In this document: positions 1 to 24,307 of the stretch, piece after piece | Position numbering within the stretch: the first letter of the stretch is position 1 | Layout: every line of letters begins with the position of its first letter | From: a virus | Strand: one strand, 5' to 3' | Virus record (IMG/VR): IMGVR_UViG_3300027708_000266 | Location: 1-26,222 of that record | DNA length: 26,222 nucleotides | Notes under the pieces: model-generated | Seen by the model: only the letters and a program-made list of their open reading frames with translations | What the model was told of the DNA's origin: nothing | Database searches by the model: none | Translations under genes and position numbers: made by a program

Positions 1-1
1 A

Positions 2-445
2 GAATTATCAAACTACGACTACATCATTATCGACGGACCTGGGCGGACATCGGAATTAAATGGATTGATATTGTCGGTTTCGGACTTGGTCTTAATTCCG
101 GTCCAGCCGTCCCCCGCAGACATCAAGGCCGCTAGACGCCTAGTCAATACAATTCACTCACTACGGATCGAATTAGATACCACTCAGCCGATGGCTGCGT
201 TCGTAGTGAGCATGGAGGACAAGACCACCGAGATATCAAAACGAGCTGATGCCATGATTATCGAGAAAAATTACAACTTGCCCATTCTAGAGGCCCGAAC
301 CGCCGATCGGATTTCCTATGTCCTGTCGTACGAGCAAGGTAAAACCGTATTTCATAGGGATGACCTGGATGCAAAAAATGAGATGGGGGCGATAGCCATG
401 GAAGTTATTGAGATTTTTGAAAAGGAGACCGATGATGAAAAGTAA
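2..445 (+). CDS. parA: ParA-type partition ATPase, 5' end outside the window
   Basis: The frame is open from base 2, so only the C-terminal ~147 residues are present and the Walker A motif lies off the left edge. The visible part begins with a Walker B-like stretch (YDYIIIDGPGRTSE) followed by the ParA hallmark PVQPSPADI and a C-terminal helical region. This matches small ParA/ParF-type Walker ATPases that segregate low-copy replicons by binding the nucleoid and a centromere-binding partner. The next gene, overlapping its stop codon, encodes a ribbon-helix-helix protein, which is the usual partner of ParF-type ATPases. The alternative is another MinD/ParA family member, but the PSPxD motif and the partner favour partition. 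Confidence 0.88.
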   Translation, partial: ELSNYDYIIIDGPGRTSELNGLILSVSDLVLIPVQPSPADIKAARRLVNTIHSLRIELDTTQPMAAFVVSMEDKTTEISKRADAMIIEKNYNLPILEARTADRISYVLSYEQGKTVFHRDDLDAKNEMGAIAMEVIEIFEKETDDEK

Positions 446-3379: not shown

Positions 3380-3793
3380 TTAGGCCAGTCTAACAACAAC
3401 GTCAATTAATTTAAAACGATTTAAAAGAAGGTTCATTGTGTAATAAAATTCAGCGTCCGGCGTCTGAAGCCCAACGCATCCCAATGTCCCTGGAACATTC
3501 CCATCCCCATGAATTCCAATCCCTGATCTTGTCGTCTGAAATTTCGGAATCAATGCCATGAACCACGGGAATGAGTCTCGCTTGTATGCGACATTCTCGG
3601 ACGTATCAGGAAGGCGGCTAATGGTGGTCGATTTCCATTTGCCTAATGGTAACGGCCCCAGCCCCCACCCACCGGATTTAAATGGCCATGAGGCGAATAA
3701 TAAATCGCCGACCAACAGATTAACGACGCCTTCCGCCAACTTGGCCTTTGGGCCATCGGAAATTTTCTTTATGACGACCTCAAGAATAATCAT
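3380..3793 (-). CDS. Putative endolysin with L,D-transpeptidase (YkuD-like) active site
   Basis: The 137-residue protein has GIHGDGNVPGTLGCVGL at about 93-109, which fits the HxxG...(S)xGC(I/V)xL arrangement of YkuD-fold L,D-transpeptidases, with His95 and Cys106 as likely catalytic residues. The usual SHGC is TLGC here, as in short phage and bacterial variants I recall. The fold acts on the peptide stems of peptidoglycan; a phage version would cleave or remodel crosslinks. There is no signal peptide, so export would depend on the neighbouring holin. The start overlaps the preceding gene by ATGA. The assignment rests on the motif and on context; no lysozyme or amidase is seen elsewhere in the window. 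Confidence 0.65.
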   Translation of the reverse strand: MIILEVVIKKISDGPKAKLAEGVVNLLVGDLLFASWPFKSGGWGLGPLPLGKWKSTTISRLPDTSENVAYKRDSFPWFMALIPKFQTTRSGIGIHGDGNVPGTLGCVGLQTPDAEFYYTMNLLLNRFKLIDVVVRLA

Positions 3794-4020
3794 TTTTTAA
3801 GCCATAAGCTTATTATGATCCCGATTACACCGACCAGAATCCCAATTAGCCAGCTCCGTGATTGTAACTGCCACGCATGGAGAGTCGCGGAAAGATCATC
3901 TAGCTTACCCATAAAAACTTGATGAGCATCTATAGCCCCCTTTAAGTCTGAATCATGGCCCGAAACACGTACCTCCAACACTGCTACACGCCCCTCCATA
4001 GAGGCCGGAATAGGCGCCAT
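3790..4020 (-). CDS. Small coiled-coil protein with C-terminal membrane anchor (XhlA-like lysis accessory)
   Basis: The 76-residue product has a heptad-like helix (RVAVLEVRV to LDDLSATLHAW, about residues 11-50) and a C-terminal hydrophobic segment WLIGILVGVIGIIISLWLKK (57-76). This is the architecture of XhlA/haemolysin-type phage lysis accessory proteins, N-terminal coil inside and C-terminal transmembrane anchor. It lies immediately before the endolysin and holin genes, and its start overlaps the stop of the fibre gene by one base. It could alternatively be the holin itself or a spanin component. Confidence 0.6.
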   Translation of the reverse strand: MAPIPASMEGRVAVLEVRVSGHDSDLKGAIDAHQVFMGKLDDLSATLHAWQLQSRSWLIGILVGVIGIIISLWLKK

Positions 4021-5015
4021 TATTCGTTTGTCCCTGGAAGCATATACACGGAAAGTGAAGATGTATTTGTTAACCCCATAGCCAAATCCAATGTACCTCC
4101 GGAATTCTGATATCCGAAAACCGTAAAATAGTCTCCAGCGGTAAGTCGTCTAATTACATTGATAGACTGCGTCGTATATTGGCCACTTACAACCGGCAAA
4201 CAAGTGGATTCACCTCCCCATATCCCAGACCCATTAAGCTGCATATATAGACGTCGATACCCTCCTGCCGCCCACTGCCACGTCGCATACATATTGATTA
4301 GATACCACCCAGTTTTTGATATCGTAATTCTTCCCGTATTTACGGAAGTCGAATGGAGTGACCCAGAATCCCAATATTCACTATTAAATGTGATTAAAGT
4401 TCCTGTTGAGTCGGCAAATGTCTGAGATGCCGAATTATAAACACTGCATGATGGCTGCGTGCTCAAAGTCAATGTCTGTGCGATATTAACATCGGCAAAA
4501 GTATTATTTGCCTCGTTCAAATCCGATAAAATTAAAGATGTCGACGAAATCGCATATCCGATTGGCTTTGCGTAGGTCGCGGGCTTTGAAAGAGTAATGG
4601 CTCCGTTGGTATCTAGGTAATATGTTTCCCCATCGTCCAATCCAGAAAATGAGTCATATTGAGTCCTCGTGACATTGGCCGTTTCATTAATTAAAACAGT
4701 TGATACCACTATTCCTAGGAAATTTTTAATCCCAGCGGCGGTTGCGCTTGTGGTTTTGTATGCCTTATTACCAGATACCCGGACACAATTCCCTGCGGTT
4801 AAATTCTCACCGGCGATAATAGCTACATTTGATCCAGGAAACCCCGTACAGTTTGATATATCTGCTACCAACGTATCAGCCACAATATCCCCAAAAGTGA
4901 CATCGTAATCGGTAGTAAAGAAACTGATTATCTGGTCGATATTCGAGTTCCAATCGACGCCATTGAGCAATGTCCCCGTGTATCGTGATAAGTCTGACAG
5001 GCTTGGCGTGGACAT
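4020..5015 (-). CDS. Tail fibre or spike-like protein with C1q-like C-terminal domain
   Basis: A 331-residue protein. The first ~45 residues (LSDLSRYTGTLLNGVDW) look like a virion-attachment segment. Residues ~50-180 are a low-complexity beta region (AGENLTAGNCVRVSGNKAY, GLDDGETYYLDTNGAI) of the type seen in phage fibre stalks. Residues ~190-331 resemble a C1q/TNF-like jelly roll: ITFNSEYWDSG, GRITISKTGWYLINMYATW, LTAGDYFTVFGYQNSGG and a final strand LSVYML. Such domains trimerise at fibre tips and often bind receptors. It lies between internal virion genes and the lysis cassette, coupled to both. It is the best receptor-binding candidate here. Confidence 0.7.
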   Translation of the reverse strand: MSTPSLSDLSRYTGTLLNGVDWNSNIDQIISFFTTDYDVTFGDIVADTLVADISNCTGFPGSNVAIIAGENLTAGNCVRVSGNKAYKTTSATAAGIKNFLGIVVSTVLINETANVTRTQYDSFSGLDDGETYYLDTNGAITLSKPATYAKPIGYAISSTSLILSDLNEANNTFADVNIAQTLTLSTQPSCSVYNSASQTFADSTGTLITFNSEYWDSGSLHSTSVNTGRITISKTGWYLINMYATWQWAAGGYRRLYMQLNGSGIWGGESTCLPVVSGQYTTQSINVIRRLTAGDYFTVFGYQNSGGTLDLAMGLTNTSSLSVYMLPGTNE

Positions 5016-12868: not shown

Positions 12869-13362
12869 TAATCAGTCCCCAGTATCCACATCTGGAATGT
12901 GGTGTCAGAAGCGGACCCTGTGAGCTTAAAACTCCCCGCAGATGCAACCGATATTTCTGAGGAATAAATGAATGTTTGTGCTTGGCCCGGAGAAATAATC
13001 ATATAATCCGAGGTGGTGTGCCATGTGAATAGATTCTGGGATGCTGCGGCACCCAATATCAGGTTGTTTGATGCGTGGGAATTGTAGATTACCAAGGCCT
13101 TAAGATAAGAGAGATCCCCATCATTGTTTCGAACGATTTGGGTGGAATATCCTGTCCCCGATTGATTATCAATTGCGTTAAGGTTGAATGTGAATACTGT
13201 GGTCCCCACGGAGCCATCAACAGAGAAAACAATATCGTCCTCGTCAATATCTAGGGTACCGATTGCAGTTGGAACCTCTTGGACCTGGATGACCGTTCCC
13301 GTTGTGGTGTCCGCTTCCTCGGTGATATTAAATAATACGCCAGCATTGCCATAAACTGTCAT
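12868..13362 (-). CDS. Beta-rich virion protein, probable capsid appendage, 164 residues
   Basis: An acidic, Ser/Thr/Asn-rich protein with predicted beta-strands throughout (VIQVQEVPTAIGTLDID, FTFNLNAIDNQSGTGY, LKALVIYNSH). It ends SFKLTGSASDTTFQMWILG, which resembles the C-terminal strand of the neighbouring appendage proteins. I chose ATG 13362, whose ATGA overlaps the upstream stop, over GTG 13374. No enzymatic motif is seen. The low charge, small residues and repeated strands are typical of decoration or fibre proteins. Confidence 0.6.
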   Translation of the reverse strand: MTVYGNAGVLFNITEEADTTTGTVIQVQEVPTAIGTLDIDEDDIVFSVDGSVGTTVFTFNLNAIDNQSGTGYSTQIVRNNDGDLSYLKALVIYNSHASNNLILGAAASQNLFTWHTTSDYMIISPGQAQTFIYSSEISVASAGSFKLTGSASDTTFQMWILGTD

Positions 13363-13700
13363 GATTGACCCCACACAAAAGAATTGAAATCGGCGTCGTC
13401 TTCGCCGTCGTTTTGAACCTCAATAGAATCTATCGATCCCAGAAGAATGAACTCGCCCGTTATCGTGAATTGGTTGCCGCTGTTTATTTTGCAGTTGAGC
13501 GTTTCCGTTGTTGAAATTCGAATCCCTGTGATCGTAGGAATGCGGCTCAAATCGACTGTGTACCAATTAGAATCGGCGGCGACAGTAGACTCACTTTTAG
13601 ATACAATCGCAAAATCCGCATCTATCTCAAATGAGACTTCGGTCAAAACATCGCTGGCCGCATTTAATTCATATTGAATGCCTTGGAATAGTGCTTGCAT
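13359..13700 (-). CDS. Beta-rich virion protein, probable capsid appendage, 113 residues
   Basis: Starts MQALFQGIQYELNAASD at ATG 13700, which overlaps the upstream TAA (TAATG); a GTG/ATG further upstream is open in frame but would overlap the previous gene by 42 bases. The C-terminus (EFILLGSIDSIEVQND to FNSFVWGQS) closely parallels part of the next upstream protein (VILTGSFPALQFKSSS to LLVWGDG), so the two share a domain. This is probably a decoration or fibre-base module. Confidence 0.6.
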   Translation of the reverse strand: MQALFQGIQYELNAASDVLTEVSFEIDADFAIVSKSESTVAADSNWYTVDLSRIPTITGIRISTTETLNCKINSGNQFTITGEFILLGSIDSIEVQNDGEDDADFNSFVWGQS

Positions 13701-14395
13701 TAGCCTGCCGTCCAGACGCCGGAGCCGCTTGTCACTAGCCATCCGGTGGCCGTTCCAGTCACGTATATGATTGAGCCCGGAGTGTATGATTCGAAATAGC
13801 CATTTAAGGTACTTGTTTGGGCAAACCCCGTGATTGTCGTATCCCCGACGCAGTAGAATCGAATCCCGTGGGCATTCTCAATTTCGAAGCCATAAATTAG
13901 CCCCCGTTTTAATGGCGGCAATATGACATAACCAAGAACTGAAAGTCCTTGATTAGTGACCAGAATTCCAGATTGTGCCGCGCTCAAATAATATGGATTT
14001 GAGGCGCTTACATCGATTCCGTCGCCCCATACCAAAAGATCGACATCCACATCGACATCGCTTGAGCTTTTGAATTGAAGTGCTGGAAACGAACCTGTAA
14101 GGATTACTGATGAGTTCATCAAAAATTCGTCAGATTCGCTATCAACCCGAAGATACACGGGTGCTGATGCGTCTAGCCTCATTGCAGTCGAGGCCTTTGC
14201 GTCGCCTAGTGGAAGAACCCCGGACAACACTTGATACATCGCCACCGAGCGCCAGACGCTTCCCGGTGGGATTATCAGTGATTGTTTTGAATAAAAAGAG
14301 AAATCGGAGATCGCCGAAAATGATTCATCCGTTAGGATGTCTGAACTTTCGGAGACCTCTAATTGATCAACGTCGAACTTGACTCGCTTTGCCAC
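13700..14395 (-). CDS. Two-domain beta-rich virion protein, 231 residues
   Basis: Residues ~1-130 carry the VILTGSFPALQF...LLVWGDG module shared with the 113-residue protein downstream. Residues ~135-231 carry a second module (SGILVTNQGLSVLGYVILP, GLIYGFEIENAHGIRF, PGSIIYVTGTATGWLVTS, GSGVWTAG) that matches the 127-residue protein encoded at 15667-16050. It therefore looks like a fusion of two appendage domains. The start is GTG 14395, overlapping the upstream TAG by one base. The role is probably a decoration or tail-fibre-associated protein. Confidence 0.65.
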   Translation of the reverse strand: MAKRVKFDVDQLEVSESSDILTDESFSAISDFSFYSKQSLIIPPGSVWRSVAMYQVLSGVLPLGDAKASTAMRLDASAPVYLRVDSESDEFLMNSSVILTGSFPALQFKSSSDVDVDVDLLVWGDGIDVSASNPYYLSAAQSGILVTNQGLSVLGYVILPPLKRGLIYGFEIENAHGIRFYCVGDTTITGFAQTSTLNGYFESYTPGSIIYVTGTATGWLVTSGSGVWTAG

Positions 14396-15657
14396 TATTC
14401 AAGACGTTTTTCCAAGGCGGTCAATCGCTCATCTAGCTGCTGGATTGCCCGGATTACAAGGGCTGATGTTTGACCCGTGTTAATCTGTTTTAGGTTTTTA
14501 ACACAAAGTTTTCCAATCTTGGTATCGCCAGAAGTTACCTTTACATCGTTTGGAAACACCTTTTCGTATTCTTGAGCGATGAACCCATATTGTTTTTGAC
14601 CAACGGGGAACTTGTAATATGCACAAGCTTCTTTATTGTATTCAAACTCGCGAACGCGAAGATTATTTAGAATTCCGAGGCCGTCGTCCAAGTCTTGAAT
14701 ATTGGTTTTTACACGTTCATCTGAAATAACGGTCCATAAGCCACCAACTCCCGGCTTCGCTGCGTCGTCAGTCGAGACTTGAAGAAGATGCGTAGCATTT
14801 GTTAAGCCAATGCCAACATTTCCAGACGAGTCAATCCTCATTCTTTCTGAAGGTGTTGCTGTAGACGTAGTTACACTCCTAGTTAGAAATACAATTGCGC
14901 CGTTCGTCCCACCCGAATTAGATGTCTCTACATAGCCGATATTAGCTGGCTGAACATCGGTTGCACCACTTCCTACAAAACCGAACCCAATCAATCTGTA
15001 TGTGTTTATTCCACTTTCCCCCCCCCCAATTGCCAAATGAGTGGTTGCTTTTGTGATATTTATCGTGGCCGTACCCGCGATTTGAAGAGTTGAATACGGG
15101 GTAGTTGTTCCAATCCCCAGGCGTGGGGTAGATGTTAACGTCATTTTTGGAGTAGTTAAGGTCCCACCAGTTGAGAAAAATAGAGGGCCTCCATTTAAGG
15201 AACTCTCTCCAATCGACCACTGAGGGGTTCCGTTCTCTTGAATTTTAAGCCAAGCATCCGATCCTGATGCCGAATCTACCGTTAAAACTGCCGTCCCTGA
15301 TGAGGCCTGGATATACGCCTGAGGTGATGCTGATCGGATATTAAAAACTGTTGAGGGGGTCGGCGTTCCAACGCCGATGCGGTGATTTGTTGCATCTACT
15401 TGAAGAGTGTTGGTATCAAATACGACATCGCCTGTAAAATTGCCCGTGACGGCATTTATCCCATTAGTAATGGATATCCGTTGACCTGTTAATTGCCCGG
15501 AAAGATTTCCCGTAACGGCTGAAAATCCTTTTGTATAACTTGCGGTCACTGCCCCAGGAGGAAGGTTGCTGCCATTAGCGGTAAATGGTCCATAATACAT
15601 TTGAGCGAACAATGGCGTTGCCAAGATTAGAAATAATGCAGATAGTATTTTTTTCAT
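14395..15657 (-). CDS. Signal-peptide-bearing fibre protein with S74 intramolecular chaperone domain
   Basis: A 420-residue protein. Residues 1-19 are a clear Sec signal peptide, MKKILSALFLILATPLFA, with a likely signal peptidase I cut before Gln20. The middle has fibre-like beta repeats (RIGVGTPTPSTVFNIRS, RLGIGTTTPYSTLQIAG, SSGNVGIGLTNATHLLQV). The C-terminal ~109 residues are a peptidase S74 domain, starting at S312-DERVK and containing QYGFIAQEYEKVFPND; Ser312 and Lys317 match the self-cleaving dyad. A final helix (IRAIQQLDERLTALEKRLE) would trimerise. AAAGGA precedes ATG 15657. S74 domains help fibres fold and then cut themselves off. A cleavable signal is unexpected for a virion part and suggests export to the cell surface. 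Confidence 0.82.
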   Translation of the reverse strand: MKKILSALFLILATPLFAQMYYGPFTANGSNLPPGAVTASYTKGFSAVTGNLSGQLTGQRISITNGINAVTGNFTGDVVFDTNTLQVDATNHRIGVGTPTPSTVFNIRSASPQAYIQASSGTAVLTVDSASGSDAWLKIQENGTPQWSIGESSLNGGPLFFSTGGTLTTPKMTLTSTPRLGIGTTTPYSTLQIAGTATINITKATTHLAIGGGESGINTYRLIGFGFVGSGATDVQPANIGYVETSNSGGTNGAIVFLTRSVTTSTATPSERMRIDSSGNVGIGLTNATHLLQVSTDDAAKPGVGGLWTVISDERVKTNIQDLDDGLGILNNLRVREFEYNKEACAYYKFPVGQKQYGFIAQEYEKVFPNDVKVTSGDTKIGKLCVKNLKQINTGQTSALVIRAIQQLDERLTALEKRLE

Positions 15658-15666
15658 AAAATTCCT

Positions 15667-16050
15667 TTAGTTAGGCGTCCAAATTCCGGCACCGGCATAA
15701 CAAATCCATTCAGTAGCATTAATTGCTGTCATCCATAGGACTGAGCCAATAGATGATGACGTGATATACCCGGCAACCGACGTGACTTGGTCACCGGTAC
15801 GAATCGTGTCTCCTGCACTTGCAATGGCCCTCATGCCGTCGCCATCCTGGATCGCAAATCCATAGGTAAGTCCGGCAGAAGCAGTAGGGAGGTCAACATA
15901 AACCTCAGCCGTAGCTCCTTCGTTGGTGATTAATGACCCTGTCTGTGTTGTCAAAAGAACATAATGGGAGCCCGATCCGCTCGTGACGGCAATGACGGAA
16001 ATCCGAGATCCCGAACTTGAAGATCCTCCAAATGGTGCGAGTGTAGGCAT
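15667..16050 (-). CDS. Virion appendage protein of the shared beta-domain family, 127 residues
   Basis: After a Gly/Ser-rich N-terminus (GGSSSSGSRISVI), residues ~33-127 form one domain: GSLITNEGATAEVYVDLPT, GLTYGFAIQDGDGMRAIA, SSIGSVLWMTAINATEWIC, GAGIWTPN. The same pattern is the C-terminal half of the protein encoded at 13700-14395. Domains of this kind (tN.Ga...LP.A..Gl.y.F...) are common in phage structural proteins. The function is probably capsid decoration or fibre attachment. Confidence 0.65.
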   Translation of the reverse strand: MPTLAPFGGSSSSGSRISVIAVTSGSGSHYVLLTTQTGSLITNEGATAEVYVDLPTASAGLTYGFAIQDGDGMRAIASAGDTIRTGDQVTSVAGYITSSSIGSVLWMTAINATEWICYAGAGIWTPN

Positions 16051-16051
16051 G

Positions 16052-16423
16052 TTATTTCACCAAAATTTCATAGTCGGAGTTACCACCGACTCGTGTTAAT
16101 CGGATTTTCTTAAATCCGATCCATGAATCCAAATTCAATATGGCGGTATCTCTAACGCTGATTTCATCGCCATAAGTTGTTCCATCGATAGACATTGCGA
16201 CGGTAAATTTGACCGACGATGTAAAGTTTTGGATATACCCGGAGCTGCCAACGCGTCCAAGGTCCGTATATACATCCAACACAACCGGTGTAGTGCCTGT
16301 ATCAACCGAACCCGAATAGAACTTATACGCCGCAGTGTTTCCGACAGCATTAATCGTTAACCCAATTGGCTTCCCGTAGGTATCTGACTGATTTCGAATA
16401 TTCTGCGACGTAATGTTGCTCAT
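16052..16423 (-). CDS. Hypothetical virion protein, 123 residues
   Basis: A soluble beta-rich protein starting MSNITSQNIRNQSDTYG, with VVLDVYTDLGRVGSSGYI and WIGFKKIRLTRVGG. No family is recognised. It is coupled by ATGA (16420-16423) to the small gene upstream and lies within the block between coat and head-tail adaptor. A structural role is inferred from position and composition. Confidence 0.6.
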   Translation of the reverse strand: MSNITSQNIRNQSDTYGKPIGLTINAVGNTAAYKFYSGSVDTGTTPVVLDVYTDLGRVGSSGYIQNFTSSVKFTVAMSIDGTTYGDEISVRDTAILNLDSWIGFKKIRLTRVGGNSDYEILVK

Positions 16424-16662
16424 ACGCCAGTTGCCTGCCAGGTACCTGTTTGATTTGCGGTGGTGGTAATGGTTACCGTCCCACCTGAGATCACGGAGAC
16501 GGTCGAAGGCGTTGACGTAGCAACGCTCACTGAAAACGTATCAACGATGGTCAGCCCCGTAGTGATGGCCCCGCCGGTATCACCGGCGGTACTCGCATAA
16601 GTCCCAAACACATGCTTTTTATTCCCGAAAACGTCATATTTCTTCGTATATGAGAATGCCAT
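16420..16662 (-). CDS. Small conserved-type phage structural protein, 80 residues
   Basis: Begins MAFSYTKKYDVFGNKKHVFG, then a Thr/Ser/Val-rich beta part (TVSVISGGTVTITTTANQTG). Short proteins with an N-terminal (M)AFxYTKK...FGNKKxxxGTY pattern occur next to capsid genes in many phages, as I recall, without an assigned function. It may be a minor decoration or head-completion protein. Its spacing to the upstream gene is 9 bases with no strong ribosome-binding site. Confidence 0.6.
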   Translation of the reverse strand: MAFSYTKKYDVFGNKKHVFGTYASTAGDTGGAITTGLTIVDTFSVSVATSTPSTVSVISGGTVTITTTANQTGTWQATGV

Positions 16663-16671
16663 TAACTTGGC

Positions 16672-17208
16672 CTAACTCGCACTTACTAAAGCGGTACGGT
16701 AGTCAGAGAATAAAATAACGCTTGCGGTTCCGGCACCGGACAAAGCGCCGACCTGGATAGCCACACTCTTTGCGCTGAAAGCAGTGGAACTAGATGTCCC
16801 ATCAACGATCAATGTGGTGCCGGCGTTCAGTAATTTGAGGTAATCGCCAGCGACGTGTGTCTCGTTGGCTAGTTTTGAAATACATTGACCAAAAATTTGA
16901 ACGAACCCATAGTATCCAGAAGTAAAGGCCACTTGAGGGATACAGACCGTCACCCCTGATGCAAGAGTTGCGGGAGCTGCCGTGACAAACTCGCTACCAC
17001 TCGTATTGATGCCAACAACCGTATAGGGCTGATATTGGGTCAGGGTTGTATGCGATTTAACATACATGAAACGTTTGATCGCATTTGGATTATCGGAATC
17101 CACCATATGGTAAACCATTCCCAACGGATACGCTGGGTTTTTTGCCGATGTAGGGACCGTTAAATCATTTTCATAAATTGAATTTGGACTATAAATTGGA
17201 AAACTCAT
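16672..17208 (-). CDS. Probable capsid-associated decoration protein, 178 residues
   Basis: Encoded directly after the coat gene. The protein has a beta-rich core (QYQPYTVVGINTSGSEFV, YYGFVQIFGQCISKLANET, GDYLKLLNAGTTLIVDG) that resembles phage head decoration and stabilisation proteins containing a barrel-like domain. AAAGGA lies 9 bases before ATG 17208, a strong site comparable with that of the coat gene, suggesting abundant synthesis. The assignment rests on fold-like pattern and place. Confidence 0.6.
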   Translation of the reverse strand: MSFPIYSPNSIYENDLTVPTSAKNPAYPLGMVYHMVDSDNPNAIKRFMYVKSHTTLTQYQPYTVVGINTSGSEFVTAAPATLASGVTVCIPQVAFTSGYYGFVQIFGQCISKLANETHVAGDYLKLLNAGTTLIVDGTSSSTAFSAKSVAIQVGALSGAGTASVILFSDYRTALVSAS

Positions 17209-17223
17209 TGTCTTCGTCCTTTC

Positions 17224-18204
17224 TTAAGAAGTTAGAGCGGTCGCGACGGCGTTTACTCGTCGGTTTTCGCAATACAGGTTTCCAACGTGATAAGTTGTCG
17301 CGACTGAAATTGGCTGATTCGGGATCGTTTGAACTGAATCGAGTGGCGATTTTTTTCCAGACCAGAATCCAAATCGGCATCCGAAGTGCATGGACGCAGA
17401 AGATAGGATGTAGAGGTAATTTGACGGTGAGTAGTAATCGATGACCCAAGGAATCCCATCCACTTCGATCCCTTTGAATCCAGACTTGACCATTTCCTCG
17501 GACATGAACCGTTGTTGAACTTGCAACTGGGTTTTGTACCGTGATTGAATGTTCGCTTTGGACAGCATCAAATCGATATCGTAAGAACTTACCAATTCGT
17601 TGTCGGCGGGCTGCTGATTAACGACTTCATAAAGTGAAGCGAGAAGGCCTGAAATAACGTCGTAGGAAACTACCGTATTGGTGCTGTCCACTTGAGGATA
17701 CCAAGTTGCATAATCGGTGTTATTGATACCGGCGTACGCAGTTCCTGAAGCTCCGAAAATATCGCCAAATCCGTTGATCGCCATGTTCGAAGTAGTTCCA
17801 GAGCCATAAAGGGCACTTGAAATTGTTCGGACCATAGTGGACTGGGAAACGTTTTTCTTGACTACAGCCAAATCCGCGATTGCGTTAGGACTGTTATCGG
17901 TTGCCGCAATGTCGTTTAGCGTCAAAACCGCGCTAGATACGAACTTTTTATAGGTCAACTGCCCGTATACCAATTCTTGGTTTGGGTTGTTTGAAATTAC
18001 GTCGGTCGATCCATCGATCCACCCTTGGGCGGCGTTATCAAGAATATTGACCGGGAATTGGAAGGTTAAGTTACCTCCATTAAAGGGCTTAGACCGTTTT
18101 TTAACGAGTTTGTTTAAAAGCGCATTTGACCGAGCTAGGGCGTCGGGGATGTCTTTCATCAACTCAGTTTGCGTTACCGCTAAAATATCATTGTTGACTG
18201 GCAT
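17224..18204 (-). CDS. Major capsid (coat) protein, HK97-fold type
   Basis: A 326-residue protein following the scaffold gene. The N-terminal helix is followed by FNGGNLTFQFPVNI, typical of the E-loop region in HK97-like coats. It continues with GQLTYKKFVSSAVLTLND, a helical spine region (AIADLAVVKKNVSQSTMVRT), YDIDLMLSK, GIEVDGIPWVIDYY and a C-terminal strand. Size, place between scaffold and decoration genes and a strong ribosome-binding site (AAAGGA, 8 bases) agree. No N-terminal prodomain is seen, consistent with a separate scaffold. Confidence 0.82.
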   Translation of the reverse strand: MPVNNDILAVTQTELMKDIPDALARSNALLNKLVKKRSKPFNGGNLTFQFPVNILDNAAQGWIDGSTDVISNNPNQELVYGQLTYKKFVSSAVLTLNDIAATDNSPNAIADLAVVKKNVSQSTMVRTISSALYGSGTTSNMAINGFGDIFGASGTAYAGINNTDYATWYPQVDSTNTVVSYDVISGLLASLYEVVNQQPADNELVSSYDIDLMLSKANIQSRYKTQLQVQQRFMSEEMVKSGFKGIEVDGIPWVIDYYSPSNYLYILSSASMHFGCRFGFWSGKKSPLDSVQTIPNQPISVATTYHVGNLYCENRRVNAVATALTS

Positions 18205-18218
18205 TTTTTATTCCTTTC

Positions 18219-19010
18219 TTACTTCGTGAGCATTCGGGCGATTTGATCTCGATACGATTCGGGCTTTGCATTGGGTTGACGGGACTGGGACGGCGCAATG
18301 GCCCGAGCTTTATTGCCTTGAATCGTTTTTGCTGTGTTCACCGAAGACTGTCGTTGTGCATTTTTTACAACGGCATCCATGGCAAATTTAGAGAAAATGG
18401 CCCCCATGTGTTGGGGTGGGATATTGTTGGTTTTGCAGTAGGTCAAAAACTCGCGTTGGTCATATTCGACCCCATACTTCTTGGAGATTGAATCAATCCC
18501 CGCCAATTCGGAGTGAATGACGTTCGTTTGCTTTTCCAACTCTTGCGCCCGCTCCATTTCCTGAAATTTTTTATCTACCGCATCAGCTCTTTCGAGTTTC
18601 GATATCATTTCAGGCGGAAGATCCCCATATTTAACTCGGCGTTGCTCGGCGGCTACCTTTTCCAGGTTCTCCATGAGGGCAGTCTGATAAGCCGGATTGG
18701 ATTCAAAAAACTCAACCAACTGCTTAACTTGAGAAAGGCTTCCGACTTCTCCTTCGAGTGTCGACAGCTTAGACTCGTAATCAGTAACCTTTTGCTTGTA
18801 CTCGCCATGTTCCTTTTGAAGCGTCGGGAGGCTTTTCTCGACATTAAGGAACGATCGATACATTGCATGGGGATCGCGGTTCCATTCCGTTTCAAATCGA
18901 GGATCTTGATCATAGGTTTGAGATTCCGTTTCTATAGCGGCATTGGGCTCGACCGATTGATCGATATCCATGTCTTCCGTAGCTGATTCTTGTTCGAATT
19001 CGTTTTCCAT
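18219..19010 (-). CDS. Scaffolding protein
   Basis: A 263-residue, strongly acidic, helical protein with a long coiled coil (LPTLQKEHGEYKQKVTDYES and onward, residues ~58-150). The C-terminus is short and basic (ARAIAPSQSRQP, then SYRDQIARMLTK), as in scaffolds whose C-terminal helices bind the coat. It is immediately upstream of the coat gene. AAGGA precedes ATG 19010 by 7 bases. There is no protease motif, so the scaffold is probably released intact as in P22. Confidence 0.75.
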   Translation of the reverse strand: MENEFEQESATEDMDIDQSVEPNAAIETESQTYDQDPRFETEWNRDPHAMYRSFLNVEKSLPTLQKEHGEYKQKVTDYESKLSTLEGEVGSLSQVKQLVEFFESNPAYQTALMENLEKVAAEQRRVKYGDLPPEMISKLERADAVDKKFQEMERAQELEKQTNVIHSELAGIDSISKKYGVEYDQREFLTYCKTNNIPPQHMGAIFSKFAMDAVVKNAQRQSSVNTAKTIQGNKARAIAPSQSRQPNAKPESYRDQIARMLTK

Positions 19011-24089: not shown

Positions 24090-24100
24090 ATTTAACCCCT
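24090..24100 (-). promoter_or_regulatory. Ribosome-binding site supporting the ACG start of the terminase gene
   Basis: On the minus strand, AGGGG (24100-24096) is followed by six bases and ACG (24089-24087). It overlaps the TAA stop (24092-24094) of the preceding gene, as at most junctions of this operon. Confidence 0.55.
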
Positions 24101-24307
24101 AGATAACCAATCGTTTTCTTGGTCTACCGCCTGGAATGGGTTGGTGGGCTGAGACGGTGTCTTGGGCTTTGTGAGACGTATTGCGGCGATAGGGTCTGCG
24201 TTGTTTCGCGAGAAGTGAGTTATCCGCATAATGAACATTACGACACCGCAGACGTATAGGGCGTTGACTGCGAGTAGTAGGACTGCGAGTAGTAGGGTTG
24301 TGATCAT
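24092..24307 (-). CDS. Small single-pass membrane protein, 71 residues
   Basis: Residues 1-28 are a hydrophobic segment (LLLAVLLLAVNALYVCGVVM). The rest is polar with a TKPKTPSQPTNPFQ linker and ends DWLSRG. ATG 24307 overlaps the upstream stop by ATGA, which distinguishes it from an overlapping frame in the same region that starts without coupling. The function is unknown; N-in or N-out orientation cannot be fixed from sequence. Confidence 0.6.
   Translation of the reverse strand: MITTLLLAVLLLAVNALYVCGVVMFIMRITHFSRNNADPIAAIRLTKPKTPSQPTNPFQAVDQENDWLSRG

Follow-up and report, generated by a model that had tools for sequence, protein, structure and literature searches.

An S74 fibre encoded in the late operon of a phage carries a conserved predicted Sec signal peptide

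The window, a stretch of 26,222 nucleotides of viral DNA analysed at its full length, encodes a Peptidase_S74 fibre protein which carries a predicted Sec signal peptide and is probably exported from the cytoplasm. Tailed-phage fibres are generally regarded as cytoplasmic virion parts. The reading that we prefer, and to which we give about an even chance, is that the protein is a mosaic trimeric fibre, made late, exported through Sec and displayed on the infected cell or, if the phage is temperate, on the lysogenic cell. Two related loci were compared with the window: L010, a contig of 12 kb in which the gene order is the same (portal protein 66% and major capsid protein (MCP) 74% identical), and L015, which a profile built on fibre residues 1–52 had picked up and whose coat protein is P22-type (Pfam, E = 8e-91) and unrelated to the MCP of the window. 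The fibre gene and its parts are as follows.

14395–15657, minus strand: signal-peptide S74 fibre gene, 420 amino acids (open reading frame and translation; Pfam S74; PHROG tail fibre families)
15662–15668, minus strand: Shine-Dalgarno-like AAAGGAA, 4 nt 5' of the fibre ATG (sequence)
15604–15657, minus strand: predicted Sec signal peptide, residues 1–18, MKKILSALFLILATPLFA (heuristic scoring; character kept in L010 and L015)
15517–15603, minus strand: mature N-terminal motif, residues 19–47, QMYYGPFTANGSNLPPGAVTASYTKGFSA, probable docking segment (comparison with L010 and L015)
14725–15516, minus strand: fibre shaft with S74-type beta-helix loops IGVGTPTPSTVF at 94, LGIGTTTPYSTL at 180 and VGIGLTNATHLL at 281 (pattern search)
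14542–14724, minus strand: S74 intramolecular chaperone/protease domain with a Ser312–Lys317 dyad (Pfam)

An earlier note on this DNA had placed an open reading frame with an S74 domain here, within the head operon, and the sequence, Pfam and the gene order all agreed. The ATG lies at position 15657, and the start of the L010 orthologue likewise has a Shine-Dalgarno sequence (AAAGGAG). Met20 was considered as an alternative start and rejected, being Leu in both L010 and L015 and having no Shine-Dalgarno sequence; the objection that the real start might lie beyond residue 19, raised in the same note against its own reading, therefore failed.

In the window MKKILSALFLILATPLFA is followed by QMYYGPF..., with the predicted signal peptidase I site before Gln19 (LFA before Q), and the N-terminus MKKILSALFLILATPLFAQ contains two lysines, an uncharged hydrophobic core of 14 residues, Ala at −1 and Leu at −3. 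Signal peptides were called by our own heuristic Sec-signal test, not by SignalP; the test was positive in one of the 36 genes of the window, the fibre gene, against background rates of 0.7% for random N-termini with phage composition and 0.4% for internal sequence windows. Taken alone, one positive among 36 genes is weak evidence and unimpressive beside this background rate. What carries the signal peptide beyond chance is that L010 and L015 keep one too, immediately ahead of the mature N-terminal motif that all three share. At this place L010 reads MRRLLMSLLALFICVSPAFG followed by QLYYGPFTANG..., and L015 reads MMKKYIIAALLFFTTTVHA followed by QLYYGPFKADGSNLPPGAVTQNYT. The letters of the signal region have diverged among the three loci and the n/h/c layout is constant, with Ala or Gly at −1 and Gln always after the cut. 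A hydrophobic N-terminus arising purely by chance was ruled out by this conservation, which also upheld the Sec signal peptide proposed earlier and suggests export through Sec with cleavage before Gln19.

All three loci continue behind the signal peptide with an almost invariant motif, QxYYGPFxAxGSNLPPGAVTxxYT. From Tyr21 to Ala47 the window and L010 are identical at 27 of 27 residues, with silent differences in 17 of the 27 codons, and this is the longest identical run among the 16 shared genes compared (MCP 22, TerL 20, portal 18); the fibre as a whole has the lowest identity (37%) of the proteins shared by the two. Scanning 2.9 million viral contigs for the motif returned only the same three contigs, with sensitivity limited by the pattern step used in the contig scans. 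No real match was found in named phages (best E = 2), and a PDB search with the N-terminal profile gave no match. The motif was also absent from 297 Bacteroidota genomes, a search which had no positive control there and is uninformative for other phyla.

The S74 domain (residues 312–372) matched Pfam PF13884 with E = 6.7e-14 and 52.4 bits against a curated cut-off of 22; the record contains no other S74 match, and the catalytic SDxxxK motif of the domain is intact (SDERVK, residues 312–317, by pattern search). A profile built from this S74 domain and related ones matched 6f45, a long tail fibre, and 7dc3, the S74 domain of MYRF. The shaft has weak similarity to the Bd2133 fibre (PDB 8ond); its first loop is at residue 94 (58 in L010), with shaft-type TGN.[ST]G repeats starting earlier, near residues 49 and 71. 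Most PHROG matches of the fibre were to tail or virion fibre families. An AlphaFold2 monomer built from a five-row alignment had a mean pLDDT of 38, the S74 end alone reaching about 50–75. An S74 tip is present in the window and in L010, and L015 has a different tip, in which Pfam found no S74 match. The anatomy is thus one of signal peptide, fixed N-terminal segment, variable shaft and exchangeable tip, which would fit a fibre that docks by one end and binds by the other.

The frequency of signal peptides on S74 proteins was assessed by the same heuristic test. In an IMG/VR scan, one of 66 viral S74 open reading frames with a complete 5' end was positive, a rate that holds for the sample surveyed, the best 80 of at least 270 relatives. 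Among complete S74 open reading frames of Bacteroidota, 7 of 11 were positive and two more were so by eye (Fisher p = 1e-6 for viral against Bacteroidota on the script's calls). Of the bacterial S74 surface gene proposed in the earlier note, the likeness is supported by this contrast; direct capture is not supported, the motif having turned up in phages only among the viral contigs and Bacteroidota genomes searched.

The single viral positive, L059, represents a further phage lineage, its S74 gene lying just after the MCP gene. Two signal-peptide genes stand there in tandem after the MCP (L059 3723–5288), the first for a 139-residue protein for which no relative was found among named phages and the second for the S74 fibre. 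No signal-peptide fibre was found in L134–L137, relatives of the L059 capsid protein, nor in the regions read of L018–L020, P22-coat relatives of L015. Four signal-peptide fibre loci are known in phages, and, on the predictions, such a fibre is rare but recurrent, in a like position in separate lineages. A literature search on signal peptides of S74 phage proteins gave nothing relevant.

The following other genes of the window bear on the function of the fibre.

15667–16050, minus strand: upstream partner gene, 127 amino acids, TNEGA beta-domain, no signal peptide (domain comparison)
13700–14395, minus strand: downstream gene, 231 amino acids, C-terminal TNEGA beta-domain, GTG start (open reading frame and sequence)
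17224–18204, minus strand: major capsid protein (PHROG major head protein, E = 5e-29; 27% identity to the Myxococcus phage Mx9 MCP)
4020–5015, minus strand: separate fibre-like protein, 331 amino acids, no signal peptide, adjoining the lysis genes (sequence and position)

The fibre gene lies on the same strand as its neighbours, between the MCP-proximal genes and the adaptor and tail genes. It is 9 nt from the preceding gene, its stop and the start of the following gene share one base (TAGTG), and its GC content resembles that of the neighbours. No promoter signal above chance was detected, with 6 promoter-like sites in 13000–18500 against 9.1 expected. TNEGA is a name coined here, from a conserved stretch, for a beta-rich domain which also lies directly upstream of the fibre in L010 (56% identity) and L015 (45%) and is repeated in the gene downstream of the fibre in the window and L010. 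Scanning the 2.9 million viral contigs with a TNEGA profile gave the same three contigs as the N-terminal motif, and because the two scans coincide, the fibre and the TNEGA gene appear to move as a unit among phages that differ in capsid type. One weak TNEGA match (E = 3e-3) was seen elsewhere, at the C-terminus of a protein adjoining the tail fibre gene of Escherichia phage EP_H11. The protein encoded at 4020–5015 had no family match in Pfam or PHROG and is a candidate for a conventional receptor-binding fibre; with such a second gene present, the exported fibre need not be the tail fibre.

Among known systems, the protein resembles the S74 subgroup of the Bdellovibrio MAT fibres (Bd3182) in its signal peptide, VGIG..P...L-type shaft loops and SDxxxK S74 tip, and in the swapping of S74 and non-S74 tips under a constant N-terminus (window and L010 against L015). 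MATs carry signal peptides, the tagged MAT proteins tested are displayed on the cell, Bd3182 self-cleaves at its S74 serine, and each of the 21 MATs has a beta-rich domain of ~130 residues directly behind its signal peptide (PMC10769870). The phage fibre differs from them in its late-operon position, its shorter length (420 residues) and a constant N-terminal segment of only ~28 residues. By analogy it may work like a MAT fibre, yet we do not file it as one, because the ~130-residue domain would have no room behind the signal peptide, as judged by length only.

K1F endosialidase-type tailspikes, the T5 L-shaped fibre and 6f45 share with it the S74 chaperone domain, shaft repeats and PHROG tail fibre families. 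S74 tail fibres and tailspikes of this kind as a rule have no signal peptide and join the virion from within the cytoplasm; as far as the conserved predicted signal peptide goes, our protein is unlike a conventional virion tail fibre. The 'tail fiber domain-containing' S74 proteins of Bacteroidota (Aureispira plasmid L022; L006) likewise combine a signal peptide with S74, but they are encoded by cellular or plasmid genes, have another mature N-terminus and show no phage context. Exported, signal-bearing envelope proteins are known from phages in Lom, Cor and Llp, some of them encoded beside tail genes; these are small outer-membrane proteins or lipoproteins rather than S74 trimeric fibres, and they change cell binding or mask the receptor by other means.

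If the preferred reading is correct, the fibre would be made late, alongside the virion proteins, would leave the cytoplasm through Sec and would lose its signal peptide by a cut before Gln19. Once outside, the chains would form trimers, the S74 domain serving as a built-in chaperone, and S74 would afterwards cleave itself off the fibre at Ser312; folding and self-cleavage would thus both occur outside the cytoplasm, the self-cleavage as the earlier note had reasoned. The fixed N-terminal peptide would dock the fibre onto an envelope partner with the tip pointing outward, and its likely use would be to alter what the infected cell binds or to mask the phage's own receptor. Such a surface fibre is supported by the start codon with its Shine-Dalgarno sequence and by a signal conserved in character across two capsid lineages. 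It is favoured also by the complete identity, with many silent changes, right after the cut in a protein otherwise so diverged, by the non-S74 tip swapped in at L015, and by the rarity of signal peptides on viral S74 proteins and their regular occurrence on bacterial ones. The second exported protein beside the L059 fibre, the precedent of exported, self-cleaving fibres in Bdellovibrio, and the separate fibre-like protein of this phage point the same way.

Against a surface fibre stand the late operon, where products are usually virion parts, the lack of promoter signal above chance, the small number of signal-peptide loci in phages and the heuristic nature of the signal call. The co-travelling neighbour, having no signal peptide, could bind the fibre only in the cytoplasm or after lysis, and no route for passage of the fibre through the outer membrane was identified. 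A Sec signal kept on a late-operon fibre points in one of two directions: infected cells may display fibres made by the phage, much as predatory bacteria display their MAT fibres, or some virion parts may reach maturity beyond the cytoplasm. Some proteins annotated as fibres in phage genomes may be exported and absent from the virion.

The signal-less partner gene and the late-operon setting make a virion fibre that passes through the periplasm the main rival, which we hold tentatively as a possibility. The fibre would be exported, fold and self-cleave in the periplasm, and its mature N-terminus would dock onto particles at lysis, the base being a protein carried on the head or neck, for instance the adjoining TNEGA-domain partner. 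Translational coupling within the late operon fits this route, as do a conserved N-terminus with a variable tip, which virion fibres also have, the PHROG matches, and the co-inheritance of the TNEGA neighbour even where the capsid proteins of the phages are unrelated. At L059, however, the adjacent protein is itself predicted to be exported and no TNEGA gene was seen beside the fibre, and we know of no tailed-phage fibre that takes a periplasmic route. That the fibre is a virion part built through Sec, its N-terminal peptide attaching to a head-borne product of the neighbouring gene as fibres join particles at lysis, we consider unlikely.

The two remaining explanations are less likely. In one, the protein is a cytoplasmic virion fibre whose hydrophobic N-terminus is a docking peptide or membrane-interacting part with no working signal. 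The gene does sit among virion genes and the signal is a prediction, but the hydrophobic letters are poorly conserved while the n/h/c layout and the −1 and −3 residues are kept, constraint rises to complete identity directly past the predicted cut, and other viral S74 fibres have no such hydrophobic N-terminus. Cleaved signal peptides evolve in this manner, with loose letters, a kept layout and constraint after the cut, and we regard a non-working signal as improbable.

Least probable of all is a moron captured from a bacterial S74 surface fibre and expressed mainly in the lysogen, for which the usual presence of signal peptides on bacterial S74 proteins and a plasmid-like prophage state, possible given the encoded ParA and Cro/CI-type helix-turn-helix protein, can be cited, but which is at odds with the close and overlapping junctions, the neighbour-like GC content, the absence of the motif from the Bacteroidota genomes (within the limits of that search), the long-term residence in phages, and the lack of an independent promoter signal, where a moron inserted between structural genes would have a promoter and terminator of its own. 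Of the interpretation offered in the earlier note, export is well supported; direct bacterial capture and lysogenic conversion are not, the latter because the gene sits within the late operon and has no promoter signal above chance.

The same phage had also been assembled as G001, a contig of 36.7 kb whose sequence is 100%/99.98% identical to that of the window. Because its two ends have about 138 nt in common, G001 is probably a complete circular map. The nearest relatives of the MCP are in the Myxococcus phages Mx8/Mx9 (27%) and those of TerL in Helicobacter pullorum prophages (31%), and the portal is P22-like (Pfam). The use of Shine-Dalgarno sequences speaks mildly against a Bacteroidota host. 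A ParA-type partition ATPase is encoded at window positions 1–445 and is complete at L012 948–1721; RecT, a PD-(D/E)XK nuclease and a Cro/CI-like helix-turn-helix protein are encoded elsewhere in the genome, and no integrase was noticed. The phage is possibly a phage-plasmid. Its lysis cassette is unusual in that a YkuD L,D-transpeptidase-fold protein (3380–3793, E = 2e-5) lies beside a small holin-like gene. An early-strand gene at 1890–2456 encodes a weak Fic/DOC-like domain (E = 2e-4, just below the curated cut-off), and a small protein with an N-terminal transmembrane stretch is encoded just upstream of TerL in both phages (window 24092–24307; L010 225–491).
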